Source: Pseudomonadota bacterium
GTDB lineage: Bacteria; Pseudomonadota; Gammaproteobacteria; Burkholderiales; Burkholderiaceae_D
Assembly: GCA_021821365.1 (NCBI GenBank)
Contig: JAKACN010000019.1
Location: forward strand, 1-36,818
Reading direction: 5' to 3'
Length of the DNA: 36,818 nucleotides
A model generated the notes under the pieces. The model did no database searches and was not told the DNA's origin. It saw nothing but the letters and a program-made list of their open reading frames with translations. Made by a program: the position numbers and the translations under genes. Below, piece after piece: positions 3,259-24,996 of the stretch (position 1 is its first letter; the number at the start of each line of letters is the position of its first letter).

Positions 3259-3273
3259 GTGAGAACTCCGTGA

Positions 3274-7366: not shown

Positions 7367-8278
7367 TCAACGCCTGCGCAATCGAAAGTGAATGTCGACC
7401 AGCTTGACGAGCAGCAGCGCGGCCACGATGTTGTGCAGCACGCCCGCCAGCAGAATGCGTCCGCCGACCATCATCACGAGGCCAAGCATGACCTGCATCG
7501 CAAGCAGCGCAAGCAATGCCGGGCAGTGCCGCTGCAGATGGCCGGCGGCGTGGCGCAGGCGACGGCAGAGCAGAACGACGGTCGCTACGACGAGGATGGC
7601 GCTCGCTGCATGCAGCGCCGTCAGCCAGTGCATGGCCTGCAGAGCGGCCTGACTTGCGCCGCGCGCAGGTGCAAATGGATTGAGCGCCCTCCATGCCGCG
7701 CCGCCCGGCCACAGCACCAGATCGCCGACGGCGGAGAGCGACCGGCACTCGATCGTGGCGGCCAGGCCGGCGGACCAGCTGCCGAGCCAGATCTGAAAGG
7801 CGGCCAGTGAACGGGAAGCGCCGGCGAGCGCATGCAGGGAGCGCTCGGGCCGCTGCCACAACGCGGGCGCCACGAAGGACAGGCGCAGGCGCCAGAACAA
7901 CGCGGCGAGCGCCATGCCCGCCACGACATTCCCGATCACGATTGCCGGCAACGTGCCGCCGGCCGTGTAGCGGCCGAGCAGGGCGAGGAAGATCGTCAGC
8001 ACCCACAGCATCAACAGCAGGGCGCGGCGGCTGCGCAGCACCGGGCGGCTGTTCAGCACGAAATAGCTCACCATGATCAGCAACATGCCGACCGCCGAGG
8101 CGGCGACGCGGTGCATCACGCGGAACATCATGCTCAGCGTCGCGGGAAAGGCGATGTTGGCGCAACCGTTGTGCTCGATGCGGATGAACGCGCTTGCCGC
8201 CAGCACAAGCAGCATCAGGCCCGCTGCAAGCCCGCAGAGGTTCGCCGCCAGGCGCGTGTAACGCGTGTCACCGTTCAT
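7367..8278 (-). CDS. ctaA: Haem A synthase, CtaA/COX15 family
   Basis: Polytopic membrane enzyme that oxidises the haem O methyl group to formyl, giving haem A. The product from the ATG at 8278 is 303 residues with about eight helices. Conserved histidines appear in FRVMHRVAAS (H56), in AMHWLTALHAAS and in GVLHNIVAALLLV, spaced as in the two four-helix halves of CtaA. The cysteines of the first periplasmic loop are reduced to one visible NGCANI. The start at 8278 overlaps the preceding haem-copper gene by 11 bases; a longer frame to 8314 adds only a non-conserved leader. As last gene of the eNOR-like operon it implies that this complex uses haem A, or that haem A is needed by its partner subunit. 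Confidence 0.85.
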   Translation of the reverse strand: MNGDTRYTRLAANLCGLAAGLMLLVLAASAFIRIEHNGCANIAFPATLSMMFRVMHRVAASAVGMLLIMVSYFVLNSRPVLRSRRALLLMLWVLTIFLALLGRYTAGGTLPAIVIGNVVAGMALAALFWRLRLSFVAPALWQRPERSLHALAGASRSLAAFQIWLGSWSAGLAATIECRSLSAVGDLVLWPGGAAWRALNPFAPARGASQAALQAMHWLTALHAASAILVVATVVLLCRRLRHAAGHLQRHCPALLALLAMQVMLGLVMMVGGRILLAGVLHNIVAALLLVKLVDIHFRLRRR

Positions 8279-9692
8279 TCGATGCCGCAACGGAAGCCAT
8301 GGCGCGCAGGACAATCACGAGGAAGATGACGCCGCCGACGATGGCGATCAGGCCGCCCAGCCCCATCAGTCCCATGCCGGCGATTTCCTGCGTGCTGCGC
8401 AGCACCTGCTCGCTGCCCGCGACCTTGCGCTGCACGCCGTAGCCGCCGGACCAGACCAGGCCAACGATATGCAGCAGCTGCCCGAAGCCGTAGATGTACG
8501 GCTGTCGCGCGGCCAGGCGGGAAGAAGGCTGCGCATAGCCGAGGCGCGGCAGGAGATGATAGGCCAGCCCCATCAGCGCCAGCGTCACGCCGACGATGCA
8601 GCCGTGGTAATGCGCGGGAATCCTGACGTTGCTACCATGGATCAGGAAGCCGATCAGGCCGCCCATCGCGAACAGCGCCAGCGAGGATATCAGCGCCGCG
8701 CGCAGCGGCTTCTGCGCTGCGGTCAGCGCCTGTCCGCGCGCGCCCATGAGGCCGATGACGACGGCCAGCGCGACGGGCAGAATCGGCAGGCCGCCGCTGA
8801 AGCGCATCAGCCAGGTGAGCAGGTTGCGGTGTTCGACTGCCGTGGGATCGTAGGCGAGATAGATCGGCGGCACCGCGAACACCGAGGCCAGCCCGATCGC
8901 GAACAGCAGCAGGGCGATGCGCGGTGTGAGCGGGATGCGCGCGCCGCAGGCGTTCGCCAGCCACAGCCACGCGACCAGCATCATCAGCGTGTAGGTGAAC
9001 TGGATCACATGACCGCTGCCCCAGAACAAGAGCTCGTAATAGCCCTTCGCGTCGATCGCGCCAGGCACCTTCACCAGTGACCATGCCAGCGCGAACAGGG
9101 CCACGGCGGTGGCGACCGCCGCGGTATTCAGGCCGAACGACAAGGCCGCCTGTCCGTCGGGGCGCGTGCCGACCCTGGGCGCGGCCAGCAGCGCGCGCAA
9201 AGTCAGTAGCGCGATGCCGATGCCGAACACGGATAGCCCGCCGAGAAACAGCGGATCGTCCAGCACGGGCACATAGTTGCTCATGATCGCGCCGCCGCGC
9301 CCGAAGAACGGCGCCAGGCCGATGATCGCGGTGCCGAGCGCCGCACCGGCCCAGCCGCTCCAGCCCAGCATCCTGCCGCGGGTGCCGCCGTTGATGCTCC
9401 ACAGCAGGCCGGCGAAGGAGAGAAACCATACCAGTACCGACAGGTCCACGTGCACCACCAGCGCGACATGGAAGAAGTCCGCCACCGGGAACAGCTTCTG
9501 CAAGTAGGGTGTGCGCGACAGCACGAGCAGCACCGACAGGATGCCCGAGACGATGAGCGAGGCCAGCGCCAGCCAGAGCCAGGCGCGCGCCAGCGGCAGG
9601 CGCTCGTCGCGCGGAACCGCGAGCGAGAAATCGGTGGCGGAGGGTGCTGCGGCCATGTCCGCCGCATGGACGCGATGCGTGGTGACGTTCAT
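8268..9692 (-). CDS. Haem-copper oxidase subunit I-like protein lacking the CuB His-His pair
   Basis: A 474-residue membrane protein with about 12 helices, homologous to the subunit I encoded at 13558-15261: both contain a YVP...P.F.LG segment between helices III and IV. Haem ligands are retained: H81 (helix II, VVHVDLS), and H361 and H363 (helix X, IPAHYHG). H228 (helix VI, GSGHVIQF) is also retained. The helix VII position that reads SAHHIL in the other subunit reads AVPPIYL here (P275-P276), so two of three CuB histidines are missing. The Tyr position of helix VI is also lost (HVIQF). It probably binds haems but cannot form a normal binuclear centre. The start overlaps the upstream gene (ATGA). 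A role as electron-transfer, NO-binding or sensor subunit is inference. Confidence 0.75.
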   Translation of the reverse strand: MNVTTHRVHAADMAAAPSATDFSLAVPRDERLPLARAWLWLALASLIVSGILSVLLVLSRTPYLQKLFPVADFFHVALVVHVDLSVLVWFLSFAGLLWSINGGTRGRMLGWSGWAGAALGTAIIGLAPFFGRGGAIMSNYVPVLDDPLFLGGLSVFGIGIALLTLRALLAAPRVGTRPDGQAALSFGLNTAAVATAVALFALAWSLVKVPGAIDAKGYYELLFWGSGHVIQFTYTLMMLVAWLWLANACGARIPLTPRIALLLFAIGLASVFAVPPIYLAYDPTAVEHRNLLTWLMRFSGGLPILPVALAVVIGLMGARGQALTAAQKPLRAALISSLALFAMGGLIGFLIHGSNVRIPAHYHGCIVGVTLALMGLAYHLLPRLGYAQPSSRLAARQPYIYGFGQLLHIVGLVWSGGYGVQRKVAGSEQVLRSTQEIAGMGLMGLGGLIAIVGGVIFLVIVLRAMASVAASNER

Positions 9693-10183
9693 CGGATGAT
9701 TACTCCGCCTTGTTCATGATTGAAATCGATCACCAGCACTTGCGACGGATGCAGTTGCACGACTTCGTCGCGCTGGTAGTTGTAGCCCTGCACGCGAACG
9801 GAATCGTTGATGCGCACCGCAATGCGATGCGCGCCGGCCGGTGTCGTGAAGCGGCGATATACGTTAGACGCGCCGTCATGCGACAGGCCGGAAGCCGGAA
9901 TCACTTCGTGGTACAGGGGCTTGCCGTCGAATGCGATGTCGATCGTGACCGGCGAGCGCTCGCGCGGGCAATCCTGCAGCGCGCGCATGTTGCGCGAGAG
10001 CTTGTTCAGCTCGGCCTCGGTGCGATTCCGGCATTCGCCGACCCGTTGACCGGAATGGCTGATGCTCAGGCGGATCAGCGCTTCGTTGGCGCCGATATGC
10101 TGGTAGGCCGGCGCGCTGGAGAGATAACCGATGCCAAGGAAGAACGCGGCGAAGCAGGCGGCTTGCGCAAGCCATCTAAACAT
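9689..10183 (-). CDS. Membrane-anchored periplasmic protein of unknown function
   Basis: Not recognised. The 164-residue product has one N-terminal hydrophobic segment (about residues 8-24) that could be an anchor or signal peptide, then a mostly beta-rich soluble domain. Two cysteines, C51 and C72, could form a disulfide. The second half (RFTTPAGAHRIAVRINDSVR) looks like a beta-sandwich. The ATG at 10183 is chosen over longer frames because AGGAGGT precedes it by six bases; a longer upstream reading is low-complexity antisense-like sequence. It overlaps the cytochrome b fusion gene by 8 bases and the following haem-copper gene by 4, so it is translationally coupled to both and is probably a structural or accessory part of the same complex. 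Confidence 0.65.
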   Translation of the reverse strand: MFRWLAQAACFAAFFLGIGYLSSAPAYQHIGANEALIRLSISHSGQRVGECRNRTEAELNKLSRNMRALQDCPRERSPVTIDIAFDGKPLYHEVIPASGLSHDGASNVYRRFTTPAGAHRIAVRINDSVRVQGYNYQRDEVVQLHPSQVLVIDFNHEQGGVIIR

Positions 10184-11798
10184 GGCGCACCTCCTCGTCC
10201 TGTGGCTTGCGACCGTTCTGTTGCGCAAGGCGCTGCAGATCGGCGCGGAAGGCGTCGATTTCCTCGGCGAGCCGGCGCGATTCGGCCAGGCTGGCGGAAG
10301 ACAGGCGCACGCGCGCCAGCTCGACGTTGTTGCCGCGCAGGTGCGGCTCGCGCTCACCCGCGATGCGCTGGCGCGCCCAGACATGGCCGAGGCGGAACTC
10401 GCATTCGCCTTCGTGGCAGCCGGTGAGGAAGACACCGTCCGCGCCGTTGCGCAGCGCGAATTCGATGAAGGAGGGTGGCAGCTGTCCGGTGCAGATCAGG
10501 CTGATGGACGCCACGTCGCCACTTGCCAGCGACTCTACGGTGACGCCGCAATCACAGCCAAACACCACGATCTTCGTTTCCTTGCCGGCCAGCCGCTGCA
10601 GCGCCGTCTCCAGTTCGCTACGCAAGCCCTGCACCGGGCGCTGCGGCATGTCGATGCCGGTGACTAGCTCGCCGATGCTGCGGAAGGGCGTGGAGGACGG
10701 ACAGGCGCCGGCGCAGATGCCGCAGGAAGCGCACAGCTCGGGATTGACGACGGCTTCCGTCGCGTGCCGCGCGCCATCCGAGCGCGGCTGCATGGTGACT
10801 GCGGAATACGGGCAGTCGTTGAAGCAGCGCCCACAGCCGTTGCAGTTGGCCAGGTCGACCACGGCAACTGCCGCGCGCTGGCGTCGCAGCAGCAGCGGAA
10901 CCAGCAATAGCAACAGCGTCGATGCGCCGAGCAGCGCCCAGACGCGGCCCGGCGACCAGGCATAGAGCAGCGGATAGACCGTGAGGTAATACCAGTCGAG
11001 CGGCAGGTTGGATGGCGCTACCATCATGTTGGCTGGCGGCGTGCTGAGCGCGGGCTTGATGAGCGAGAGCAGGAGCAGCGCGATGATGGTGCCCCAGCCG
11101 AGCGCGCGCGGCGGCTGGATCTTTGCGCGGCTGATGCGCTGGATGTGGATCCACATGCCGGCCAGCAGCAGCAGCGGCAGGCCGATATGAAGAAACACCA
11201 GCAGGGAGAAGAAACGGTCGCTGATGGTTTCCGGCGTCAGGAAGTTGCGCACCATGGCGCCGCCGAATACGGGCAGCCAGTCGAAGAGTTCGGCGGTGCC
11301 GACCGCCACGAACTGCGACAACTGGTCCCACACCAGCCAGTAGCCGTTGATGCCGGAGGCGAACGCGAGCCAGATGAGCGGAATGCCGCTGACCCAGGAG
11401 AACCAGCGGAAACCGGCGTAGCGGCCGTTCAGGAATTCGCGTACCAGGTGCAGCGTCATGGTCACCGCAAACGCATCGGAGGCGTAGCGATGAAAGCTGC
11501 GGAGGATGCCGCCGAAATACCATTGCGCCGTGATTGCGTCGATCGAGCGGTAGGCGTCCAGCACACCGGTGTCGAATACGATATAGAGATAAATGCCTGT
11601 CGCCGCAATGATCCAGAAGAAGAAATAGGACAGCGCGCCGAGATTGTGCCAGGGATTGTGCACCGTGCCGAATGCGCGGTCGAATGCCCGCTCGACGGAT
11701 TGCAGCGCGCGCAGTGCGACGGGGAATGGTGAGCGAACCGGTACGCCGGCGGGCTTCGATGCAGGCTTCGCAGCCGGCTGGATGGAAAATACCTTCAC
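10176..11798 (-). CDS. Cytochrome b / 2x[4Fe-4S] ferredoxin / MvhD-like fusion protein
   Basis: A 540-residue redox protein in three parts. Residues 45-225 are a cytochrome b (b6-like) domain with two His pairs spaced by 14: H103/H117 (HRY...LHLVR) and H204/H218 (FLHIG...WIHIQ), enough for two haems b; further helices follow to about 305. Residues 315-370 hold two [4Fe-4S] motifs, C319/C322/C325/C329-P and C356/C359/C362/C366-P. Residues 408-480 resemble the MvhD/FlpD iron-sulfur domain, with C415, C417, C436, C461 and C466 (TGCHEGECEFRLG). It starts with GTG after TAGGAG, which overlaps the SCO stop. The order suggests an electron-input module between quinol and cytoplasmic iron-sulfur carriers, serving the adjacent NO-reductase-like complex. 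Direction of flow is unknown. Confidence 0.82.
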   Translation of the reverse strand: MKVFSIQPAAKPASKPAGVPVRSPFPVALRALQSVERAFDRAFGTVHNPWHNLGALSYFFFWIIAATGIYLYIVFDTGVLDAYRSIDAITAQWYFGGILRSFHRYASDAFAVTMTLHLVREFLNGRYAGFRWFSWVSGIPLIWLAFASGINGYWLVWDQLSQFVAVGTAELFDWLPVFGGAMVRNFLTPETISDRFFSLLVFLHIGLPLLLLAGMWIHIQRISRAKIQPPRALGWGTIIALLLLSLIKPALSTPPANMMVAPSNLPLDWYYLTVYPLLYAWSPGRVWALLGASTLLLLLVPLLLRRQRAAVAVVDLANCNGCGRCFNDCPYSAVTMQPRSDGARHATEAVVNPELCASCGICAGACPSSTPFRSIGELVTGIDMPQRPVQGLRSELETALQRLAGKETKIVVFGCDCGVTVESLASGDVASISLICTGQLPPSFIEFALRNGADGVFLTGCHEGECEFRLGHVWARQRIAGEREPHLRGNNVELARVRLSSASLAESRRLAEEIDAFRADLQRLAQQNGRKPQDEEVRHV

Positions 11799-11810
11799 GC
11801 TGAACTGCTC

Positions 11811-12620
11811 CTATGCCTGCTTGCGCTGGCGCCTCCATTCGCTTGCCAGCATCCACGCGACGCTGCCGAGAATGCTGGCGCCGGCCAGCAGGCCGACGAT
11901 CAGCGAGTAATTGGCGCGATACGTCCCGGTGCCGTCGTCGTACACGGTGCACAGCAGGCGCACGCGCGTGACCAGGCCGGACCAGCCGGACGGTACCGGA
12001 ACCACACCGTTATCCATGTCGCGCAGCGCGGCGACAAGGGCTTGCGCGTTCAGGCTGTCGCCATACAGTTGGCGATAAATGCGGCCGCTGCGGTCGAGGA
12101 CGGTCAGCTGCGTGACATGATCGAACCCCTTTGGCGTGGCGAGGTAGCTGAAGCCGAAATCGCGTGTCAGCGGCAAAACCGTTTTCAAATCGGAGCTGAG
12201 GAATTCCCAGTTGCGCGTAGTGATACCCTGCTGACGGGCGAATGCGGCCATGGCATCGGGCGAGTCGAACGGGGCGTTGAAGCCGATCGTGACGACACGA
12301 AATGCATCGGTCCCAAGCAGGTCCTGCGTCGCCATGACCGCGCGGGAAATCAGCAACGTATCGCTCGGGCAGACCTGGAAACAGCCGGTGTAGACGAAGC
12401 TCACCAGCAGCGGCTTGCCGCGATGGGACGACAGGCGTACCGCTTTCCCGCTGCGGTCGCGCAGAACGTAGTCGGCGGGTGCCGTGCCGATTGCCGCCTG
12501 GCTCGTCTTGTAGGCTGCCTGCGGATCGATCTGCTCTTGTGCCATGGCGCAGGCCTGCAGGCCCAGCGTCAGCAGCGCGGCGCCGCACAGTGCGCGAAGG
12601 CGGACTCCTATCGCATCCAT
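11811..12620 (-). CDS. SCO1/SenC family copper chaperone with C-terminal membrane helix
   Basis: A 269-residue SCO protein. An N-terminal signal or anchor (about residues 8-27, with a lipobox-like LQAC24) leads to the thioredoxin-fold domain with C80-F-Q-V-C84 and H168 in GFDHVTQ, the full copper-binding set. A second membrane segment near residues 238-258 (LIVGLLAGASILGSVAWML) is unlike the single-anchor SCO at 2007-2684 and places the domain between two anchors. It overlaps the end of ctaB by 13 bases. It is likely to load CuA of subunit II (15277-15822) and perhaps CuB of subunit I. Confidence 0.88.
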   Translation of the reverse strand: MDAIGVRLRALCGAALLTLGLQACAMAQEQIDPQAAYKTSQAAIGTAPADYVLRDRSGKAVRLSSHRGKPLLVSFVYTGCFQVCPSDTLLISRAVMATQDLLGTDAFRVVTIGFNAPFDSPDAMAAFARQQGITTRNWEFLSSDLKTVLPLTRDFGFSYLATPKGFDHVTQLTVLDRSGRIYRQLYGDSLNAQALVAALRDMDNGVVPVPSGWSGLVTRVRLLCTVYDDGTGTYRANYSLIVGLLAGASILGSVAWMLASEWRRQRKQA

Positions 12621-13474
12621 GCCGCATCAGCCATGGCCGCCACGATCAGAACGGTGAGTTGCAGCAGCGACGCATGGAAATTCGCCATCGCCGTGGCGCG
12701 TTCGGGCCGCCGCGCCAGCCGGATGCTCTTGTCGATGAAATACCCGCCGCCGAGAACGGCGCCGGCGAGGTACACCGGCCCCGCGCCGAACCACATCGGC
12801 ACGAGCGATGCCGCTACCAGCGCGACGGTATTTGCCAGCACCACACGCGCCGCCGCCGGCACGCCGATCACCACCGGCAGCATCGGCACGCCTGCGGCGG
12901 TGTAGTCATCCGCCTGCGCGATGGCGAGGCTCCAGAAATGCGGCGGCGTCCACAGGAAAAGGACGAAGGCCAGCGACAGCGACAGCGGTTCAGGCTGCGG
13001 ATTGACTGCGGACGCGCCCGCCATCACGGCGAAGCTGCCGGCCAGCCCGCCGACGACGATGTTGAGCCAGGTGCGGCGCTTGAGCAGCACCGTATAGACG
13101 ACCGCATAGAAAAACGCGCCGAGGAAGACATACAGCGCCGATATCCAGTTCAGCGCAAAGCCGGTGAGCAGCGTCGAACCGAGCACCATGCAGGCGATCA
13201 GCCACAGCCAGTGCGGCCCGTGACGCAGCGTGCCGGTGACGAAGGGGCGATTGCGCGTGCGCGTCATCCGGACGTCGATGTCGCGCTCCACATACTGGTT
13301 GAAGGCGCCGGCGGCTGCCGCCGACAGCAGCACGGTGATGCCGATCAGCGCGGCCTTCCACGCCGGCGTGTGCGATCCCGGCGTGATGGCGAATCCGGTG
13401 AGCGCGGTCAGTGCGATCACCACGCCGATGCGCAGCTTGAAGACGTTGAGTAGTTGCCTGGTGAGCTTGCTCAT
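12608..13474 (-). CDS. ctaB: Protohaem IX farnesyltransferase (haem O synthase)
   Basis: Membrane prenyltransferase of the UbiA superfamily that adds farnesyl to haem B to give haem O. The 288-residue protein has about nine helices. The first aspartate-rich site is NQYVERDIDVRMTRTRNRP, and the CtaB loop YTVLLKRRTWLNIVVGG is intact. PPHFWSLAI and DDYTAAGVPMLPVV form the second site. Together with ctaA in the same operon it gives a dedicated haem O/A supply for the eNOR-like complex. It follows subunit I after an 83-base gap that contains a strong stem-loop. Confidence 0.95.
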   Translation of the reverse strand: MSKLTRQLLNVFKLRIGVVIALTALTGFAITPGSHTPAWKAALIGITVLLSAAAAGAFNQYVERDIDVRMTRTRNRPFVTGTLRHGPHWLWLIACMVLGSTLLTGFALNWISALYVFLGAFFYAVVYTVLLKRRTWLNIVVGGLAGSFAVMAGASAVNPQPEPLSLSLAFVLFLWTPPHFWSLAIAQADDYTAAGVPMLPVVIGVPAAARVVLANTVALVAASLVPMWFGAGPVYLAGAVLGGGYFIDKSIRLARRPERATAMANFHASLLQLTVLIVAAMADAAWMR

Positions 13475-13513
13475 GTCGGCTGTTCTCCGGGGAAGTGGAC
13501 ATGGGTGCCGTCG

Positions 13514-13543
13514 CGCTGCTCCCTTCGACGAAAGGGAGCAGCG
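13514..13543 (-). other. Perfect 12-bp stem-loop between subunit I and ctaB
   Basis: CGCTGCTCCCTT at 13514-13525 pairs with AAGGGAGCAGCG at 13532-13543 around a 6-base loop. No U-tract follows on the minus strand, so it is more likely an mRNA processing, stability or partial-termination element than a full terminator. It separates the three structural genes of the eNOR-like complex from its maturation genes. Confidence 0.7.
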
Positions 13544-13557
13544 TGGACTGCAGCCTG

Positions 13558-15261
13558 CTAACTCATGCCCCAGAGCTGGGACAGGTACTTCCAGTTGATG
13601 AAGTAGTACAGCACGAAGGCAACCAGGAACACCATCGCGAAGACGAAGGTGCCCGGCGCGGCGAAGCCGGCCACGCCGACATTGCCGTGCCCTGAGGAGG
13701 TGCTCACCGGCGTCACGACCGGTGTCGGCTTGTTGCTGACCGCGCCGGCTTCCAGCTTCTTGCCGAACAGGATCGAGCAGACCGTGATCAGGATGTACGC
13801 ACCGCCGCCGATGACGGCCGCCACGGCGCTGATGCCGACCAGCGACATGAGCAGATAGGCACTGCCCGGGAACTCATACGGCAATGCGGTGCCGGCAAAG
13901 GAAATATCCCAGTGACGTCGCGGCACGCCCAGCGTACCCGCGCCCATCATCACCAGCGCGAACACGCTCATGCCGATGCCGAACAGGTAGGGCTGCCACT
14001 TCGCCAGGCCCGGGAACATCACTTCGCGCCGGAACAGCGCCGGGATCAGGAAGTAGGTGAGCGACATGAATGCCAGCGTGGTGCCGATCACGACGGTGGC
14101 GTGGAAATGGCCAGGCACATAGATGGTGTTGTGGATGATCAGGTTGAGCTGTTCGGTACCCATCATCACGCCGGAGATGCCGCCGAGGAATCCGAAGCCG
14201 ACCAGCGAAATGAACATGCCGGAGAACACCGGGTTGCCCCACGGCGCCTTGCGGATCCACTCGAACAGACCCTTGTTGAAGCCTTTCTCGCGCTGCGCCA
14301 CTTCGATCGCGCCCGGAATGGTCAGGCCGTGCACCATGCTGGCGAGTACCGCGAGGTACATCGCATAGCTGGTGTTGAAGATCTTCCATTCGGAGGAAAC
14401 GCCCGGATCGACCAGGATGTGGTGCGCGCTGGCCAGTTGCAGGAAGAAGATGTACAGCAGGAAAGCGGTGCGCGACACGCGCTCCGACATCGGCTTGGCG
14501 CCGAACACGATGGCCGCGATGGCATACCAGACGGAGATGTGCGCCGCCACGTTGATCTGCTGCGAGGAGTGGCCGAAAGCCCACCAGATCACGCGGTACA
14601 TCAGCGGATCGATGGCCTTGATGTAGCCGATCACCCAGAGGAAGGTCGGGATCAGGATGATGGCGCCGGAGGCGATCGTGAAGACCGCGATGATGGCGGC
14701 CGTCATCGCGCCGAAGGTCACCAGCGGAATCGATCCGGTGTAGGTCTTGTCCGCCTTGGCGACGACCAGCGTGCCGAAGAAGATGAAGCAGCCGATCAGC
14801 GCGCCGACGGCGAACAGGATCAGACCGAGATAGAAAGCCGGGCTGCCCTGCATCGGCACATACGAGGTCATCATCACGCTCGAGTTGCCCTGGAAGATCG
14901 CCACGTTGGTGGTGATCCCGCCGATCAGCATCAGCGCGAAGGCCAGCCACGCCATGTTGGGCGTCGCCAGCCGGCAGCGCAGCAGCGTGGAGGAGCAGAA
15001 GTACAGCACGGCGATCTCGAAGAAGATGATCCAGAACACCAGCATGTCGAGGCCATGCGCGGTGAGCACGAGATAGAAGGTATCGGCCGGCAGCAGGTGC
15101 ACCGCCGGCCATCTCGTCAGCGCGATCAGCAGTGCAAGGATGCCGCCGATCAGCAGGAACACGACGGCAGCCACGGCGTTTGCCTTCATCAGGTTTTCGG
15201 CCGAGGTGTGGAACTGCAGACCTGTCCGCGGACAGGTGCGGAACGTTTCTTGGTAGGCCAT
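13558..15261 (-). CDS. Haem-copper oxidoreductase subunit I, eNOR-like (putative CuA nitric oxide reductase)
   Basis: A 567-residue, roughly 13-helix subunit I. Ligands visible: H69 (helix II, TAHGLDM, low-spin haem), H231 (helix VI CuB), H280-H281 (helix VII CuB, SAHHILVDPG), and H385 and H387 (helix X, VPGHFHATVV). After H231 the sequence is HSSQQINV, so the cross-linked Tyr of A/B-type oxygen reductases (H-P-E-V-Y) is replaced by Gln (Q235). Loss of that Tyr with retained CuB histidines is a mark of NO-reducing haem-copper enzymes such as the described eNOR family; the assignment to eNOR is from motif memory, not a tree. A strong AGGGAGGAGACG precedes the ATG. Linked to a CuA subunit II, ctaA/ctaB, SCO and the nir cluster, which supports NO reduction. 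An oxygen reductase cannot be fully excluded. Confidence 0.8.
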   Translation of the reverse strand: MAYQETFRTCPRTGLQFHTSAENLMKANAVAAVVFLLIGGILALLIALTRWPAVHLLPADTFYLVLTAHGLDMLVFWIIFFEIAVLYFCSSTLLRCRLATPNMAWLAFALMLIGGITTNVAIFQGNSSVMMTSYVPMQGSPAFYLGLILFAVGALIGCFIFFGTLVVAKADKTYTGSIPLVTFGAMTAAIIAVFTIASGAIILIPTFLWVIGYIKAIDPLMYRVIWWAFGHSSQQINVAAHISVWYAIAAIVFGAKPMSERVSRTAFLLYIFFLQLASAHHILVDPGVSSEWKIFNTSYAMYLAVLASMVHGLTIPGAIEVAQREKGFNKGLFEWIRKAPWGNPVFSGMFISLVGFGFLGGISGVMMGTEQLNLIIHNTIYVPGHFHATVVIGTTLAFMSLTYFLIPALFRREVMFPGLAKWQPYLFGIGMSVFALVMMGAGTLGVPRRHWDISFAGTALPYEFPGSAYLLMSLVGISAVAAVIGGGAYILITVCSILFGKKLEAGAVSNKPTPVVTPVSTSSGHGNVGVAGFAAPGTFVFAMVFLVAFVLYYFINWKYLSQLWGMS

Positions 15262-15276
15262 GGGCGTCTCCTCCCT

Positions 15277-15822
15277 TTATTTGTTCACGACGTAGAGGCG
15301 GCTGACCATGGTGTGGTGTCCGATGCCGCAATACTCGTTACAGACGATAGAAAACGCGCCGTCCTGGTTGGGCGTTACGTTGACCACCATTTCATAGCCG
15401 GGAATGACCTGCAGGTTGATGTTGGCCGGCTGCAGCGAGAAGCCGTGCATGTAATCCATCGCCGACAGGTGCAGGCGATAGCTCTTTCCCTTCTCCAGTT
15501 CCAGGATCGGCCACCAGGACCACAGGCGCGCCACCAGGTAGACGTCGCTGCCCGCCGGCGGATGCACCACCGGGATCTTCTGGTCGCTCTCCGTGCGCAC
15601 GGTGTACTTGTCGACCATCGCCTGCGCCTTTTTGCTGTAGGCTTCCGGCGCGGTACGATAGGCTTCGTTGGACAGGTTCTGCTTACCGAAGACATGCCAG
15701 TACGGCATCATGAAGAACATGAACAGGCACCAGACGAAGGCGATCGCGATCCATGTGCCTTCGACGCGGTCCAGCGGCTGCTTCCACCAGAGCCGTCTGG
15801 CGGGCGGATGTATCGCGCTCAT
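15277..15822 (-). CDS. Haem-copper oxidase subunit II with complete CuA site
   Basis: A 181-residue protein with one N-terminal membrane helix (about residues 22-41) and a periplasmic cupredoxin domain. All CuA ligands are present: H126 (DYMHGFSL) and C161, E163, C165, H169 and M172 in CNEYCGIGHHTM. It should take electrons from a small c-type cytochrome and pass them to subunit I, encoded 15 bases downstream. Only one membrane helix is present, as in ba3- and CuA-NOR-type subunits, where A-type oxidases have two. The Trp-rich ARLWSWWPILEL before the CuA loop is the usual electron-entry region. Confidence 0.9.
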   Translation of the reverse strand: MSAIHPPARRLWWKQPLDRVEGTWIAIAFVWCLFMFFMMPYWHVFGKQNLSNEAYRTAPEAYSKKAQAMVDKYTVRTESDQKIPVVHPPAGSDVYLVARLWSWWPILELEKGKSYRLHLSAMDYMHGFSLQPANINLQVIPGYEMVVNVTPNQDGAFSIVCNEYCGIGHHTMVSRLYVVNK

Positions 15823-15832
15823 GGCCGTCTCC

Positions 15833-16006
15833 TTATTTCCCGATCGGGATCGTCACGATTTCCATGATTCCCCACATGGTGTAGAAGACCGTGGGGACCG
15901 CGACGCCGATGAAAAGCAGCAGGAACGGATTGTCCAGGATCTGCTGCATGATGGGAACGCGCTCTTCAGCGTCGTCGTCGGTGTGTACTTCCGGATTGGC
16001 AGACAT
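15833..16006 (-). CDS. Small single-helix membrane protein, first gene of the eNOR-like operon
   Basis: A 57-residue protein starting at the ATG at 16006, chosen because AGGGAGGAAACG precedes it; a longer frame to 16036 lacks such a site. An acidic N-terminus (HTDDDAEERV) is followed by one membrane helix (NPFLLLFIGVAVPTVFYTMW). It lies 10 bases before the subunit II gene. The size, single helix and position match small accessory subunits of haem-copper enzymes. The family is not recognised. Confidence 0.7.
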   Translation of the reverse strand: MSANPEVHTDDDAEERVPIMQQILDNPFLLLFIGVAVPTVFYTMWGIMEIVTIPIGK

Positions 16007-16146: not shown

Positions 16147-16160
16147 ATGATACGTATCAA
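16147..16160 (-). promoter_or_regulatory. FNR/DNR box upstream of the eNOR-like operon
   Basis: ATGATACGTATCAA differs from TTGAT-N4-ATCAA by one base and contains the perfect palindrome TGATACGTATCA. Its centre is about 147 bases before the first start codon (16006). A class II start site near 16112 would leave a leader of about 105 bases. No good -10 hexamer is visible there. The site predicts activation by FNR, or by the NO sensor DNR/NNR. Confidence 0.65.
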
Positions 16161-16389: not shown

Positions 16390-17940
16390 TCAGTGGCTCG
16401 TGCCTTCCGAACGCGTGATCTTGTTGTAGACGTTGTATTTGCCCGATGGCTTCTTCATCGGCAGGCGCTTCACTTCCTGCAGCGTCTTCGCATCGTAGAC
16501 CACCAGTGCACCGTCGTCGTCCCACACGCTGACCAGCGCATACCGGCCGTCGCGCGTGAACTCGGTGTGCGCGGCGATCTTGCCCGGACTGGGCTGCACC
16601 TGCGCGACGACTTCCAGCTTCTGCTTGTCGATGATCTGGATGACGTCGTGATGCTCCTTGCTATTGAAGGCATCGACCCACGCGTACGGCGTGTTCTCAT
16701 GGCTGCGCATGAAGAAGCCGGGGCCGAGCGTCTTGATGTGCTTCACGGTCTGCCAGGTCTTCATGTCGACCACGGTCACCACGCCTTCCTTCAGGTTCGG
16801 GCTTGCCAGAACGGTACGGCCCTGATAATTCCAGCTGATGCCCGAGCCGAGGTGCGGCATGCCCGGCAGGTCGATGCTGGCGATCTTGCGCCGCACGTTC
16901 AGGTTGACCACCTGCCCGCGTCCCTCGCGCGAAGCGCCGATCATGTCGTCGTAATGCGCATCGAAGAAGAAGTCGTCGAGATAGTCGTCGAGTTCGATGC
17001 GGCGCGGCGCGAACGGTCCCGGCGTGGCCAGCCCCTCGGCCATCTTGTAGTCATGCACGAAGCCGTCGAACACCGGCTCGGCCTTGTCGTCGTAGCTCAG
17101 CTCCCAGACCTCCGGAATGTCCTTCATCGCCGCCACGAAGCTCTTGCGCGGCGCGGCGTCATAGACTGCCGACACGCGCGAACTCTTGCCATCGCGGCTT
17201 TTCACATCGAACACGCGGATCGGCGACAGGTCCTTCGTGTCCAGCACCACCAGCGTGTGCGGCAGGTAGTTCGCGACGATCGCGTAGCGGCCATCGCTCG
17301 ACACGGCCATGTTGCGCGCGTTGATGCCGGCGCGCACTTCCGCCACCAGCGTAAGGTTCCAGATGTCGTACTTTGCGATCCAGCCGTCGCGCGAGCAGAA
17401 GTAGACATAGCGTCCGTCCGGCGAAAACTTCGGCCCGCCATGCAGCGCAAAGCGCGTCGGAAACCGCGTGATCGGCTCGAACCGGTCGCCGTCGAGGATG
17501 GTCGCGTGATGGTCGCCGAGTTCCACCACCACGAACAGGTTGAGCGGATCGGCCTTGAATACCGGCTTGTCGGGCAGGCTGCCCGGCGCATGGTACTGGA
17601 TGCGCGATGCGCGGATGGCATCGATGCCCCAGGCCGGCGCGGCCGGCGGCGGCGTGTAGATGTAATCGACGAGCTGCCTGATGTCGTCCGCGCTCAGCTT
17701 GTCGGCAAAGGGCGGCATCTGCGTCGCGAGGCGGCCATTGGTGACCGTCTTCACCGCGTCCGGCTTGCGCAGCCGGTCGAGATTGCCGGGCAGGAGCGCA
17801 GGCGCGATCAGGCCAAGTCGGTCCGGCCCGTGGCAGCTTGCGCAATGCGCCTGGAACAGCGCCGGCGCGTCCGTTGCGCAGGCGAGCTGCGCGATGCCGC
17901 ACAGCGCGACTGCGACGGCGGTCTTCAGCAATCGTTTCAT
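16390..17940 (-). CDS. nirN: NirN, c-type cytochrome / d1-type dehydrogenase of haem d1 synthesis
   Basis: Periplasmic NirS paralog that introduces the acrylate double bond in the last step of haem d1 formation (dihydro-haem d1 dehydrogenase). The 516-residue protein has a signal peptide (about residues 1-22), a cytochrome c domain with C33-A-S-C36-H37, and an eight-bladed propeller from about residue 120 that resembles the NirS d1 domain. It is told from NirS (23272-24987) by the shorter N-terminus and the ending GKYNVYNKITRSEGTSH, and from NirF by the cytochrome c domain. It is the last gene of the nir operon, overlapping nirJ by 4 bases, and a stem-loop follows. Confidence 0.93.
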   Translation of the reverse strand: MKRLLKTAVAVALCGIAQLACATDAPALFQAHCASCHGPDRLGLIAPALLPGNLDRLRKPDAVKTVTNGRLATQMPPFADKLSADDIRQLVDYIYTPPPAAPAWGIDAIRASRIQYHAPGSLPDKPVFKADPLNLFVVVELGDHHATILDGDRFEPITRFPTRFALHGGPKFSPDGRYVYFCSRDGWIAKYDIWNLTLVAEVRAGINARNMAVSSDGRYAIVANYLPHTLVVLDTKDLSPIRVFDVKSRDGKSSRVSAVYDAAPRKSFVAAMKDIPEVWELSYDDKAEPVFDGFVHDYKMAEGLATPGPFAPRRIELDDYLDDFFFDAHYDDMIGASREGRGQVVNLNVRRKIASIDLPGMPHLGSGISWNYQGRTVLASPNLKEGVVTVVDMKTWQTVKHIKTLGPGFFMRSHENTPYAWVDAFNSKEHHDVIQIIDKQKLEVVAQVQPSPGKIAAHTEFTRDGRYALVSVWDDDGALVVYDAKTLQEVKRLPMKKPSGKYNVYNKITRSEGTSH

Positions 17941-19139
17941 GCCGCCCCCGCCGTGCGAATCTTGACATACGGCTTCAGCGGCACGCGCTCGCGCGGCGCG
18001 GCCAGGCCAATCTCGTCGTCAGCCAGGTAGCAGGCCGGGTCTTCTTCCCACGGATCGCCGGTCAGCTGCAACGCGCGGATGCGGGTATTGCCGCCGCAGA
18101 TGTCGAGGTAACCGCATTCGGCGCAGCGGCCCTTGACCGGACGAGGGCTGGATTTCAGGCCCGCCATCAGCGGATCGGAGGTGTCGCGCCAGATGTCCGA
18201 GAACTTGCGCTCGCGCACGTTACCGAGATTGTGCTGCCACCACATCGTGTCCGGATGCACGTTGCCGAGATTGTCGATGTTCGCCACGTTCACGCCCGAC
18301 GCATTGCCGCCCCATTGCGCCAGCTTGGTGCGGAGATGCTCTTCCCGTTCAGGCATATTCCGCCGCACCCAGTGCAGCAGGTAGACGCCGTCCGCATCGT
18401 TGTTGCCGGTAACGAATTCCTTCTCGATGCCGTTCCGCACGTTCTCCCAGCAGGTATCGAACAGCAGGTCCATCGCATTGCGCGTGGTCTGCAGGAATGC
18501 GTCATGCCCGCGGTTCTTGTTGCCGCGTCCCGCGTAGTTGAGATGCGACAGGTAGAACTTGTCGATGCCCTCGTCGTCCACCAGTTGCAGCAGGGCCGGC
18601 AGGTCATGCGCATTGTCCTGCGTCAGCGTGAAGCGCACGCCGGCGCGGATGCCGACCCCGCGGCACAGGCGCACGCCATGCAGCGATGCATCGAACGCAC
18701 CCTCCTTGCGGCGAAAGATGTCGTGCGTCTCGTGCATGCCGTCCAGGCTGATGCCGACATAATCGAAGCCGGCAGCGGCAATCTGCGCGATGTTGCCGGT
18801 GTCGATCAGTGTGCCGTTGGTCGACAGGCCCACATAGAATCCCATCTTCTTCGCATGCCGCGCCACGTCGAAGACATCCTTGCGCAGCAGCGGCTCGCCG
18901 CCGGAGAGAATCAGCACCGGCACGCCGAAGGCGCGCAGGTCTTCCATCACCGCATAGACTTCATCCGTGCTCAGCTCGCCGGCAAAATCCTTGTCGGCGG
19001 AAATCGAATAGCAGTGCTTGCAGGTCAGGTTGCAGCGCCGGATCAGGTTCCATATCACGACAGGTCCCGGCGGATTGCGCTTCGGCCCGACCGGCGTCGG
19101 GTGCGCGAGTTCATGCATGTACTGGCTGATGCGAAACAT
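17937..19139 (-). CDS. nirJ: Radical SAM haem d1 biosynthesis protein NirJ
   Basis: Cytoplasmic radical SAM enzyme that removes propionate side chains from didecarboxysiroheme during haem d1 synthesis. The product is 400 residues from the ATG at 19139 (AAGGAAA upstream); a longer frame to 19418 runs antisense over nirH. The radical SAM cluster motif is C36-N-L-T-C40-K-H-C43, followed by ILSGGEPLLRKD. The C-terminal SPASM-type region contains CAECGYLDICGGNTRIRA and a final Cys in DPACYL, for an auxiliary cluster. It sits between nirH and nirN, the usual order. Confidence 0.95.
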   Translation of the reverse strand: MFRISQYMHELAHPTPVGPKRNPPGPVVIWNLIRRCNLTCKHCYSISADKDFAGELSTDEVYAVMEDLRAFGVPVLILSGGEPLLRKDVFDVARHAKKMGFYVGLSTNGTLIDTGNIAQIAAAGFDYVGISLDGMHETHDIFRRKEGAFDASLHGVRLCRGVGIRAGVRFTLTQDNAHDLPALLQLVDDEGIDKFYLSHLNYAGRGNKNRGHDAFLQTTRNAMDLLFDTCWENVRNGIEKEFVTGNNDADGVYLLHWVRRNMPEREEHLRTKLAQWGGNASGVNVANIDNLGNVHPDTMWWQHNLGNVRERKFSDIWRDTSDPLMAGLKSSPRPVKGRCAECGYLDICGGNTRIRALQLTGDPWEEDPACYLADDEIGLAAPRERVPLKPYVKIRTAGAA

Positions 19140-19161
19140 GATGTTTTCCTTGACGTTGTCT

Positions 19162-19647
19162 TTAGCCGGCCAGCCTGAGGCCGGTTTTCTTGAGAATCCG
19201 TGTGCTGAACAGCACATCATGGCTGCGCACATGCGCACCGAGCACATCCTTGATTTGCGCGATCTGCGCCGTGACATCGTCGCGGCCATGCCCATGCACC
19301 ATCGCGAACAGGTTGTACGGCCACTCTGGCAGATGGCGCGGGCGGCGATAGCAATGCGTGACGAATTCCAGCCGGCCCACGCGCTCGCCGAGTTCATCGA
19401 CCACCTCGTCCGGCACATCCCACACCGTCATCCCGTTCGAGCGATAGCCGATCGCGTAATGGTTCGGCACCACGCCGATGCGGCGAATCACGCCCGTTTC
19501 CTGCATGCGCCGCATGCGCGCCATCACTTCTTCCGCCTCCAGGTTCAGCTTTTCCGCGATCGCATGATAGGGCCGCTCCACCAAAGACAGACCCTGTTGG
19601 GTGGCGATGACGATGGCGCGGTCCGTTGCGTCCATGGCTGTGTTCAT
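19162..19647 (-). CDS. nirH: Siroheme decarboxylase subunit NirH (Lrp/AsnC-like fold)
   Basis: A 161-residue member of the NirD/L/G/H family, which decarboxylates siroheme at C12 and C18 to 12,18-didecarboxysiroheme. The N-terminal winged helix (about residues 6-60) and the Lrp-like RAM domain are present. NirH/NirL-type signature segments are RRIGVVPNHYAIGYRSNGM, VWDVPDEVV and CYRRPRHLPEWPYNLFAMVHG. The C-terminal SHDVLFSTRILKKTG also matches. A weak ribosome site precedes the ATG, and the dispersed repeat ends only 24 bases upstream, so translation may be affected by that hairpin. The G/H/D/L labels rest on similarity patterns and gene order. Confidence 0.88.
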   Translation of the reverse strand: MNTAMDATDRAIVIATQQGLSLVERPYHAIAEKLNLEAEEVMARMRRMQETGVIRRIGVVPNHYAIGYRSNGMTVWDVPDEVVDELGERVGRLEFVTHCYRRPRHLPEWPYNLFAMVHGHGRDDVTAQIAQIKDVLGAHVRSHDVLFSTRILKKTGLRLAG

Positions 19648-19670
19648 TTGCTTGCGTCGTTATGGGTTGC

Positions 19671-19803
19671 CCACGAAAAACACGAAAAGCACGAAAAGCA
19701 CGAAAAGGAATTTCTCATTTCAAGCACCTGTTCGATCAACATCGGCTTCAGGCAACCATTCATAGGACAAGAACTTTTCGTGTCTTTCGTGTTTTTCGTG
19801 GAC
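19671..19803. repeat. Dispersed palindromic repeat, copy 2 (inside the nir operon)
   Basis: The left arm from 19671 has four iterated CACGAAAA-type units (CCACGAAAAACACGAAAAGC and onward to 19707). The right arm at 19774-19803 ends TTTCGTGTTTTTCGTGGAC. About 28 of 30 arm positions pair. An extra TTTCGTGGAC follows at 19810-19819. It lies between nirG and nirH, both on the minus strand, so it would be transcribed as a long hairpin within the nir message. Confidence 0.85.
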
Positions 19804-19822
19804 ATATGCTTTCGTGGACTTA

Positions 19823-20266
19823 TCACACCTTCAACTTCATCTCGACGAAGTACTCGCGCGACTTCGGAAAGTTGAATACCTTGCAGCCGGTGTCGTGCTC
19901 GATCCGCGTGATCACCTCATCGATTTCACTCGGTGTTTCCGTCGCAATCACGAACCACATGTTCAGCGCGTGCGTGCGTGCGTAGTTGTGCGCGACTTGC
20001 GGCAGGGCATTCACGCGTTGCGCGACCTGCTCGTAGCAGTCGTCGGGCGCGTGCAGCGCCGCGAGCGTGAAGGCACCGCCCATGCGTTCGACCTGGAACA
20101 GCGGACCGACGCGGGTCAATATGCCGCGTTCGAGCAATTGCGACAGGCGCGCGATCAGCGCTTCTTCGCCGATGCCGATCGATCGGGCCGCTTCGAGGTA
20201 CGGCCGCTCGCACACCGGCAGGCCGCCCTGCAGCCGGTTGATGATGGCGCGGTCGATGTCATCCAT
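19823..20266 (-). CDS. nirG: Siroheme decarboxylase subunit NirG
   Basis: A 147-residue Lrp/AsnC-like protein of the siroheme decarboxylase family. MDDIDRAIINRLQGGLPVCE starts the winged helix. ILTRVGPLFQVERMGGAFTL and NYARTHALNMWFVIATE match the NirD/NirG branch, as opposed to the VWDVPD branch of NirH/NirL. The ATG at 20266 overlaps the nirDL stop by 8 bases (ATGGATGA), with GAGG upstream; longer frames run antisense to nirDL. It probably pairs with NirH to form an active decarboxylase, as D pairs with L. Confidence 0.9.
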   Translation of the reverse strand: MDDIDRAIINRLQGGLPVCERPYLEAARSIGIGEEALIARLSQLLERGILTRVGPLFQVERMGGAFTLAALHAPDDCYEQVAQRVNALPQVAHNYARTHALNMWFVIATETPSEIDEVITRIEHDTGCKVFNFPKSREYFVEMKLKV

Positions 20267-21266
20267 GGGCTGCCTCGCATGCGGGAGCGTAGCGCGCGCC
20301 GTGTTGCTTGAAGCGGCGACGGCTGAACAGGAGATCATGCGGATAGACGGCAAGGCCGCAGCGTTCATCCAGCGCGGCGACGCGTTCGGCGACCTCCTCG
20401 CGGTCCTTGCCGTGCACCATGCAGAACAGGTTGTAGCGCCATTCCGGCAACTGTCGTTTGCGCCGATAACACAGCGTAACGTTTCCGGTCGCTGCGATGC
20501 GTTTGCCGAAATCGCCCGCGATGTCGTCCGGCACGTCCCATACCGCCATCGCATTCGCGGTGTAGCCCAATTCATGATGGCGCACGACGACGCCGAAGCG
20601 CTTGATCACCGCCGCGTCCACCCAGCGTGAAATCGTCGCGATCGCATCGTCCTCCGGCACGCCGAGCCGCGCGTAGGGGCGCTCGACCAGCGGCAGGCCG
20701 TCCTGCAAGGCGGCGACCAGCGCGCGTTCTGCATCGCTCAACTGAACCGAGCGTTGGCGCAGGTCAGGGCTGGACGCATCGTAGTGATTCTCCTGCGTGG
20801 CCAGGTCGAACCCGAGGTCGATGTGGAAATCCTCCAGCATCGGTAGCACCAGCAGGCTGCCGCACGCGGACCGGTCTTCGATGTCCTGCAGCACCGCCTG
20901 CAATTCCCGGGCGGAAGGCGCGGTCGCGACAAACCACAGGTTGTAGCGATGCTCGCGTTCGTAATTATGATTCACTTCGGGATGGCCGTTGATGATCGTC
21001 GCGACTTCGACCACCCGTGCGGCGGGAACCGCGAGCGCCGCCAGCGTGCTGGCCCCGATGGCATTCGGACGGAATACCGCGCCGACGCGACTGATCATGC
21101 CGCGTTGCTGCAATCGTCGCAATGCGGCAATGACCGCCTGTTCATCCGTGCGCAACTGCGCAGCCAGTGCAGCGAATGGCCGCGGCAGCAGAGGGAAATC
21201 GCGCTGGAAGGCATTCAGCAGCGTGAATTCCAGTTCGCTCAGCAAGATGGATGCCGTTGCACTCAT
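20259..21266 (-). CDS. nirDL: Fused siroheme decarboxylase NirDL
   Basis: A 335-residue protein joining two Lrp/AsnC-like siroheme decarboxylase units that are separate NirD and NirL genes in Pseudomonas. Residues 1-165 are NirD-like (MISRVGAVFRPNAIGASTLA, NYEREHRYNLWFVATA). Residues 172-335 are NirL-like (KRFGVVVRHHELGYTANAM, VWDVPDDI, CYRRKRQLPEWRYNLFCMVHG). The fusion is known from other denitrifiers. It removes two acetate carboxyls from siroheme, which is supplied from the NirE branch. It follows nirF directly (stop at 21267) and overlaps nirG by 8 bases. Confidence 0.94.
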   Translation of the reverse strand: MSATASILLSELEFTLLNAFQRDFPLLPRPFAALAAQLRTDEQAVIAALRRLQQRGMISRVGAVFRPNAIGASTLAALAVPAARVVEVATIINGHPEVNHNYEREHRYNLWFVATAPSARELQAVLQDIEDRSACGSLLVLPMLEDFHIDLGFDLATQENHYDASSPDLRQRSVQLSDAERALVAALQDGLPLVERPYARLGVPEDDAIATISRWVDAAVIKRFGVVVRHHELGYTANAMAVWDVPDDIAGDFGKRIAATGNVTLCYRRKRQLPEWRYNLFCMVHGKDREEVAERVAALDERCGLAVYPHDLLFSRRRFKQHGARYAPACEAAHG

Positions 21267-22442
21267 CTAGAGTCCCGTGCGCGCGGCGCGCGAGGTAAAG
21301 AAGATCCCGCTCGGCGCAGTGGCCGGCAACACGGTGCGTTGCGCGAAGGTCGCCGTGTCGTACACCACCACGCGATTGTCATCGCGCGCCGAGATCCACA
21401 CGGCCTCGCCGCGTGGTGTGAACTCCATGTGGAGCACCGTCTTGCCCGGTTCCAGCCGCTTCACGACGCTGCGCGTTTCCACGTCGATGACTTCGACATG
21501 GCTGTTGGTCGGGAAGGCAAAGTTCACCCATACCTGCCTGCCGTCGGGACGCGCCATCACGAACACCGGCTGGCCGGAGACGGGAATGCGCGCCGCTTCG
21601 CGCCAGGTTTCCATGTCCAGCACCAGCACTTCATGTCGCCCGATGGCGGGCAGGTAGGCGAATTTCCCAGCCACCGCCCAGCCACGCAGGTGCGGCATCT
21701 TGTACACCGGCAGTTTTTCCTGACCCTTGCCGTAACCATCGAGCACGCGCCGCAATCCCTTTTCCAGATGCCACAGGTCGAGCAGGGCCATGCCGTCCTC
21801 GCCGAACAGCCCGGCGATGTAGTAGCGGCCGTCCGGCGTGATCATGCCGTCATAGGGCTCGCGGCCGGCGTTCCTGAACTTGTCGATGCGCGGGGCGCGC
21901 GGGTTGCTGAAATCGCCGACCCAGATTTCGCCGGCTTCAAACAGGCTCCAGACGAAACGATTGCCCGGCGCATCGGCCAGGCCGACGACCTTCGCGCGCT
22001 GCCCCTGCGTGCCGTAGCTGGCCGGCACATCGGCCAGCAATTCGAGCGTGTCGGCGTTGAACACCTTCACGCCGCCCGGCGTGTAATTCTGCGCGGCGAT
22101 CAGCGTGCCGTCCTGCGAGATCGCGCCGCCGATGCTGTTGCCGGCCTGGACGACGCGCCGCTCGATCTCGCCCTTGAGCAGGTCCACCTTCGACAGGCCG
22201 CCATCGCGGCCGAACACATACGCATAGCGCCCGTCGCGTGCATAGACCACCGACGCATGCGACAGGTCGCCCAGGCCCTTCACCGTGGCGATCGATATGC
22301 GCTTCGTGGTATCGACCACCTGCACGCTGCCGGTGGCGCGTTCGATCACCACCCCAAGGTCGCCGGTGCCGCGCAAGGCCGGGGCGGCGCAGCCGGCGAG
22401 GGCGAGGACAAATGTAGCGACGACTGCAACTCTAGCGTTCAC
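21267..22442 (-). CDS. nirF: Haem d1 biosynthesis protein NirF (lipoprotein)
   Basis: A periplasmic eight-bladed propeller protein (391 residues) related to the d1 domain of NirS, essential for late haem d1 synthesis and binding the precursor dihydro-haem d1. The N-terminus has a lipobox, VLALAGC, so C18 would be lipidated and the protein anchored. LGVVIERATGSVQVVD starts the propeller; HASVVYARDGRYAYVFGRDG and MPHLRGWAVAGKFAYLP are NirF-type segments. Translation starts with GTG (22440-22442), overlapping nirC by 11 bases. It has no cytochrome c domain, which separates it from NirN and NirS. Confidence 0.94.
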   Translation of the reverse strand: MNARVAVVATFVLALAGCAAPALRGTGDLGVVIERATGSVQVVDTTKRISIATVKGLGDLSHASVVYARDGRYAYVFGRDGGLSKVDLLKGEIERRVVQAGNSIGGAISQDGTLIAAQNYTPGGVKVFNADTLELLADVPASYGTQGQRAKVVGLADAPGNRFVWSLFEAGEIWVGDFSNPRAPRIDKFRNAGREPYDGMITPDGRYYIAGLFGEDGMALLDLWHLEKGLRRVLDGYGKGQEKLPVYKMPHLRGWAVAGKFAYLPAIGRHEVLVLDMETWREAARIPVSGQPVFVMARPDGRQVWVNFAFPTNSHVEVIDVETRSVVKRLEPGKTVLHMEFTPRGEAVWISARDDNRVVVYDTATFAQRTVLPATAPSGIFFTSRAARTGL

Positions 22443-22860: not shown

Positions 22861-22938
22861 CCTTGTTCCTTTTTTCGCTTCGGAGGTGCGGGATAGGCGC
22901 GTGCGCATCCCGCACTTCCGGTTCAGCCAGTCGTTCGC

Positions 22939-23259: not shown

Positions 23260-23271
23260 CCTCTTCTCCTT

Positions 23272-24996
<1,725 letters not shown>

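Follow-up and report, generated by a model that had tools for sequence, protein, structure and literature searches.

The gene cluster and its metal sites

Contig JAKACN010000019.1 of assembly GCA_021821365.1, a burkholderial genome (Burkholderiaceae_D), carries nine open reading frames (ORFs) on its minus strand, from position 16006 down to 7367, beside a set of nitrite reductase (nir) genes. This gene cluster very probably encodes a nitric oxide (NO) reductase (NOR) of the eNOR family. The window analyzed here is the whole contig (C389; 36,818 nucleotides), and the assembly comprises 5.27 Mb in 419 contigs with 97.4% completeness and 3.7% contamination. The coordinates and gene list of the initial annotation, a nine-gene arrangement with ctaB, SCO and ctaA next to a nir cluster, were found to be right.

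The first three ORFs would form the core of the enzyme. The outermost, sm67 (15833..16006, minus strand like all ORFs below), codes for a small one-helix membrane peptide; its ORF reaches 16036 and the likely start is the ATG at 16006, which is preceded by the ribosome-binding sequence GGAGGA. Subunit II (15277..15822) is a B-family-like CuA cupredoxin with one transmembrane helix, matching PF00116 with 26 bits and a ba3 subunit II with 58 bits. Directly downstream of it lies the gene of the haem-copper subunit I (13558..15261; PF00115 (COX1), 236 bits). A 22-protein haem-copper alignment shows that subunit I keeps the six metal-ligand histidines (H69, H231, H280, H281, H385, H387), and that Q235 sits where all nine A- and B-type references have a tyrosine. 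The sixth transmembrane helix (TM6) reads GHSSQQ, against GHPEVY or GHPIVY in these references; Thermus ba3 aligns with residues 34-467 and its GHPIVY falls over GHSSQQ. The CuA set of subunit II is complete (H126, C161, E163, C165, H169, M172). The initial annotation had described both features, namely all haem and CuB histidines kept with HSSQQ in place of H-P-E-V-Y, and a full CuA subunit II, and the alignments bear it out.

These residues recur in the relatives. A scan of named-genome contigs yielded at least 546 confirmed relatives, of which the best 80, mainly Betaproteobacteria by record title, were used. Together with the window, 13 loci from genomes of the same order and two plasmids, they give 96 subunit I rows (95 distinct sequences), in which Q234, Q235 and the HH pair are invariant (96/96) and the HxH motif is present in 95. 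In the subunit I of the Thermus thermophilus TF27 plasmid (L129:7983-9668), HFK stands for HFH, which makes lysine the presumed low-spin haem ligand there.

The residue at this active-site position differs between families: glutamine in eNOR, asparagine in sNOR, aspartate in gNOR, glutamate in cNOR and qNOR, and tyrosine in oxygen reductases, according to PMC8756737. Since glutamine at the tyrosine position is the mark published there for eNOR, the window subunit I is assigned to this family. Gln-for-Tyr replacement, six histidines, a CuA-bearing subunit II encoded ahead of subunit I, a relation to the B family and an association with Nir genes are likewise shared with the eNOR family of Hemp and Gennis 2008 and Murali et al. 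2024 (PNAS), as cited in other papers. The enzyme is thus a member of a known, little-studied family, built like an oxygen-using oxidase. Four other assignments were rejected. A cNOR or qNOR would have glutamate instead of glutamine, and subunit I lies outside the NOR branch; an sNOR or gNOR would have asparagine or aspartate, and glutamine is found in all 96 rows; an A-family oxygen reductase is contradicted by the lack of the HPEVY motif and by a position outside the A clade; a B-family oxygen reductase is contradicted, by motif, by the absence of the TM6 tyrosine, replaced by Q235.

Cytochrome c oxidase is the annotation that many eNOR genes bear, according to PMC8756737, and the Defluviimonas and Thermus copies indeed carry oxidase names. 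Genome surveys can therefore miss eNOR.

Position of subunit I among haem-copper enzymes

In a 33-row tree, the window subunit I falls into a 16-row clade (support 100/98) with the Defluviimonas and Thermus plasmid homologues. The A (100/100) and B (87/99) references lie elsewhere in the tree, as does the cbb3/NOR branch; sister to the clade (95/92), on a long branch, are rows of the type of HCO2, a paralogue encoded further down the operon. In a 21-row tree without long branches, the eNOR clade is recovered with 100/100, as is the grouping of eNOR and B rows against A. Subunit I therefore has its own clade outside the A and B references, although the monophyly of the B family is weak in the 21-row tree (65/94); on these trees, eNOR may be the sister of the B family or derived from within it. 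Plasmid matches from Natrialba and Halobaculum were rejected as eNOR, as they carry the tyrosine and are of B type. Two further loci (L044:6544-8211 and L045:6304-8019) encode an odd subunit I with FHNMHY in TM6, YH for HH and GYFH for GHFH, preceded in L044 by a match to a CuA-type subunit II. These proteins are not eNOR and possibly represent another degraded haem-copper family.

The kinship with the B family raises the question of whether the enzyme is a divergent ba3-like oxygen reductase with an unusual active site, still reducing O2, perhaps at very low oxygen. Thermus ba3 oxidase shares its fold, type of CuA subunit II and metal ligands. The ba3-type oxidases are the closest solved structures of subunit I (about 150-190 bits) and subunit II is ba3-like as well, while SCO and CtaB are typical of oxidases. 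E21 of subunit II and Y246 and S308 of subunit I, which we take to be equivalent to positions of the ba3 proton path, are conserved. However, the tyrosine of oxygen reductases is absent from all 96 rows, and the operon differs from Thermus ba3 oxidase in the FNR-type sites upstream of it and in a strong association with nirS, accompanied by an inverse one with cNOR among nirS genomes (see below). An oxygen reductase is thus very improbable here.

Denitrification genes and the regulatory site

The nir cluster (16390..24987) lies upstream of the operon on the same strand. From the operon outwards, it comprises a nirN-like gene (16390-17940; Cytochrom_D1, 382 bits), nirJ (17937-19184; TIGR04051, 644 bits, above its cut-off), three NirDL-like proteins of the nirDL/G/H type (19162-21266), a nirF-like gene (21267-22442; Cytochrom_D1, 369 bits), cytochromes c (22432-23259) and nirS (23272-24987; a cytochrome c domain and Cytochrom_D1, 522 bits). 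The names N, F, G and H were assigned by eye.

A dyad of the FNR/DNR/NnrR type, TTGATACGTATCAT (16147..16160, no strand assigned), is located between nirN and the operon. Scored against the FNR/DNR-type consensus, it is the best site of the window and the only one with one mismatch; over the whole window, 17 matches with up to two mismatches were found for 8.1 expected. The enrichment is clear in the relatives: of the 92 distinct upstream stretches examined (550 bases each), 37 contain a site with no more than one mismatch, and 13 have a perfect site; 40 rounds of dinucleotide shuffling gave on average 0.8 (at most 2) and 0.03 (at most 1), respectively. The glutamine mark, the separate clade, the CuA subunit and this anaerobic-type site together uphold the initial description of the operon as eNOR-like, and the UbiU/UbiV genes (anaerobic ubiquinone) found inside some cassettes also count for it.

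The association with nirS was examined in 150 genomes of the order, the window's genome included: 16 have eNOR, 39 nirS, 36 a cNOR-type norB and 14 qNor, two long qNOR-type matches (31-33%; G008 and G057) having been dropped from the norB count. Of the 134 genomes without eNOR, 24 encode NirS, compared with 15 of the 16 that have eNOR (Fisher p 2e-9). Within the set of 39 nirS genomes, cNOR is present in 3/15 of those with eNOR and in 23/24 of those without it (p 1.4e-6); when qNOR is added, the counts are 6/15 and 23/24 (p 2e-4). Nine genomes with nirS and eNOR (G010, G011, G038, G039, G065, G083, G118, G126, G132) have no cNOR or qNOR match, and one of them, G038, is a single 4.5-Mb contig (99%). 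Among nirS genomes, eNOR mostly stands in for cNOR. The two enzymes would catalyze the same reaction and both pair with NirS, but cNOR (NorCB with NorQD) has glutamate and a cytochrome c subunit and belongs to another subfamily, whereas eNOR has CuA and glutamine.

The host of the window has both. As the initial annotation stated, norCB and norQD are missing from the window; a norC-norB-norQ-norD set occurs on contig C387 beside a nirK-type gene (L027:1394-8928, G000:C387), a second, partial norB at the end of contig C176, qNor on C175 and nosZ on C87 (976 bits for a cut-off of 625). The norC of C387 carries two cytochrome c matches, and the nirK-type gene has a C-terminal cytochrome c domain and scores 192 bits with TIGR02376, below the cut-off of 296. 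With norCBQD, a partial second norB and qNor also present, eNOR is not the only NO reductase of this genome. Contamination of the bin is a less likely source of these genes because G153, of the same genus, carries the same kind of set (eNOR 97%, norB 91%, second norB 47% and a qNor-type match). The partnership with NirS that had been proposed for the operon thus stands at the level of the lineage or population, as the distribution of nirS, cNOR and qNOR indicates, and is not supported as a sole partnership in the window's own genome, which has other NO reductases and NirK.

From these data we infer NO reductase activity, as well as the haem type, the electron donor and the helper roles proposed hereafter. 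The best explanation as a whole, which we hold with considerable confidence, is an eNOR-type core with its helpers, under an FNR/DNR-type switch, that consumes the NO made by NirS. The core, made of sm67 and subunits II and I, would take up electrons at the CuA of subunit II from a donor in the periplasm, a cytochrome c or a cupredoxin, and pass them through the low-spin haem to the high-spin haem/CuB pair of subunit I, where two NO molecules would be joined and reduced to N2O. It is proposed that the enzyme is tuned to NO and not to O2 because glutamine replaces the active-site tyrosine. CtaB, the CtaA-like protein and probably HCO2 would act in the making or insertion of haem O/A, and SCO in copper insertion. 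Lack of oxygen, or NO, would induce the operon via the FNR/DNR-type site, the neighboring NirS would supply the NO, and the cytochrome b fusion(s) would serve as a dedicated electron module.

Several points weigh against this explanation. Besides the weak monophyly of the B family, the clade in the trees is defined by the glutamine-bearing Defluviimonas and Thermus homologues and not by the biochemically characterized eNOR of Rhodothermus marinus. The co-occurrence tests treat genomes as independent and ignore shared ancestry, and no relation between eNOR and cNOR is seen over the full set of 150 genomes (p 0.76). Absence of a NOR means absence of similarity to the NorB and qNor of the window's genome, a search that left aside sNOR, gNOR and nNOR, and some genomes are incomplete (G126 78%, G100 87%). 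Genes nirS, N, F or J are within the fetched flanks in only 27/80 loci, or 17/40 of those with both flanks. Finally, there is the presence of norCB, a partial second norB, qNor and nirK in the host.

This last point leads to another possible, though doubtful, role, in which the enzyme is an NO-detoxifying or bifunctional terminal reductase under fluctuating oxygen and cNOR/qNOR carry the respiratory NO flux of this host. The norCBQD, partial norB and qNor genes are consistent with it, as is a cbb3-like operon adjoining the denitrification genes; reduction of NO by eNOR in microoxic conditions is moreover reported in PMC11388526. On the other hand, in the 9/15 genomes with nirS and eNOR that have no cNOR or qNOR match, eNOR would have to carry the whole flux. 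For some nirS genomes of the sample, no NO reductase other than eNOR was found. The cbb3-like operon itself consists of a ccoN-ccoO-ccoP set (window 2662-5531) followed by SCO and a hemN-like gene; its CcoN scores only 259 bits for a TIGR00780 cut-off of 583, which indicates a divergent cbb3.

The helper cassette

Six genes follow the core. The first two encode a CtaB/CyoE haem O synthase (12608..13474; TIGR01473, 256 bits for a cut-off of 210) and a copper-insertion protein of the SCO family (11811..12620; PF02630). They are followed by a fusion of a b6-like cytochrome b with two 4Fe-4S sites and a FlpD/MvhD domain (10176..11798; PF00033, PF02662), then by orf165 (9692..10183), a 164-residue protein with one transmembrane helix and a periplasmic beta-sandwich. 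The last two are the haem-copper-fold paralogue HCO2 (8268..9692; a weak COX1-like match, 53 bits) and, overlapping it, a divergent CtaA-like protein (7367..8314; PF02628 (COX15-CtaA), 51 bits). In a family profile search, sm67 and orf165 matched no family. The predicted beta-sandwich of orf165 (model pLDDT 94) gave unspecific fold matches, and two of its cysteines are invariant in 78/78 rows.

A close subunit I was found in 15 of the 149 other genomes of the order searched (69-81%; one partial). From these genomes 13 neighborhoods were fetched, each of which retains sm67, both enzyme subunits, SCO, cytochrome b, orf165 and HCO2. In the named genomes, a homologue of the small peptide lies upstream of subunit II in 80/80 loci. 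Genes were counted in those 57 of these loci for which 8 kb or more of downstream sequence is available. None of the 57 lacks the small peptide, subunit II, subunit I, SCO, cytochrome b or orf165; HCO2 is present in 56, the FlpD part in 54, ctaB and a ferredoxin-FNR part in 52 each, and the CtaA-like gene in 21. The ferredoxin-FNR part is missing from L048-L050 (the nearest relatives of the window), L072 and L114. Such recurrence of the gene arrangement is far from chance. On the Thermus thermophilus TF27 plasmid only the core is seen, with a 49-residue sm67-like ORF and the genes of both subunits, and nirS lies about 3 kb away on the opposite strand. In the betaproteobacterial operon, the core is joined by ctaB, SCO, the cytochrome b fusions, orf165 and HCO2, and often by a CtaA-like gene. 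The Defluviimonas plasmid cassette also contains cyoE, SCO, cytochrome b, an orf165 homologue and a hemerythrin gene; the sm67-like short ORFs of both plasmids were recognized by eye. The nine-gene arrangement had been called little described. This is apparently so for the betaproteobacterial helper cassette, no description of which was found in the literature searched, Murali et al. 2024 not included; it is not rare, however, as it recurs in most of the best 80 relatives.

HCO2 and the cytochrome b fusions are the most interesting leads. HCO2 has the fold of a haem-copper subunit I and keeps the haem-ligand histidines. It lacks the full set of three CuB-ligating histidines of catalytic haem-copper enzymes: H228 is kept in 67/67 rows, but the aligned CuB histidine pair is absent, the columns facing the HH pair holding histidine in 0/67 and 2/67 rows. 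An HH dipeptide elsewhere between 255 and 300 in 13/67 rows, and His 288 in 58/67, would be compatible with a shifted metal site. HCO2 lies beside a haem A synthase in 9/12 distant loci. The CtaA-like protein has asparagine at a usual haem-ligand histidine (N129, 13/13 rows). From the ctaB and CtaA-like genes, the use of haem A or O by this eNOR is plausible. A second HCO2-like protein of the window's genome, with a C-terminal TPR part (L029:2431-4440, G000:C288), directly follows ResB- and CcsA-like ORFs, and a similar one follows a CcsA-like ORF in G145 (L047:6396-8315).

The cytochrome b proteins keep four histidines with b6-like spacing. In the FlpD fusion, the four haem histidines, the 8 cysteines of the two 4Fe-4S sites and the 4 cysteines of the FlpD domain are kept in 52/52 rows. 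Cytochrome b6f has PEWY at a position where most cytochrome b rows carry an (L/F/I)DW(F/Y) segment, the proline being lost. A second fusion, of cytochrome b with ferredoxin-FNR, is full length in 14 of the 16 eNOR genomes and in none of the 134 others, among the matches listed. The full-length matches rank first; from rank 15 on, a match covers one half alone, either the reductase or the cytochrome b. The C-terminal half resembles stand-alone BenC-like 2Fe-2S ferredoxin-FAD/NAD reductases of the order genomes (~43-55% identical), from which the fusion differs by its b6-like cytochrome b and its full-length confinement to eNOR genomes in this sample.

These fusions, with HCO2, could make the cassette a quinol-oxidizing complex in which electrons are divided between eNOR and a carrier in the cytoplasm, either NAD(P) or an FlpD partner. 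The recurrence of cytochrome b, FlpD and ferredoxin-FNR parts, the restriction of the full-length second fusion to eNOR genomes, the four haem histidines and the PEWY-like segment point in this direction. Yet the PEWY-like segment is without the proline, no Rieske-type gene occurs among the nine ORFs, the ferredoxin-FNR fusion was not found in the window's genome, and the Thermus plasmid core has no cytochrome b fusion nearby, so that eNOR can exist without them; electron splitting is thus unlikely. A tentative proposal, which we consider possible rather than probable, is that HCO2 is a haem-copper fold that has lost CuB and with it catalysis and aids CtaA/CtaB in making or delivering A-type haem, here to eNOR and elsewhere to aa3-type oxidases, and that the cytochrome b fusions are a dedicated electron module that connects NO reduction with the quinone pool and, in the cytoplasm, with NAD(P) or carriers of the FlpD type.

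Two features of the cassette lend themselves to tests: the haem-copper-fold protein that lacks the CuB histidine pair and lies beside a haem A synthase, and a cytochrome b fusion that, in this sample, is specific to eNOR genomes. Such tests are within reach in cultured carriers, for example Castellaniella defragrans DSM 12141, whose cassette (L110) has no ctaB and FlpD matches. Genes of the ubiU-ubiV-ubiT type, for oxygen-independent ubiquinone synthesis, occur in or beside the eNOR cassette in L040 (10476-12957), L054, L093 and L107. Near the end of two cassettes (L128:17526-17930 and L114) lies a hemerythrin gene, whose product is perhaps an O2- or NO-binding helper.

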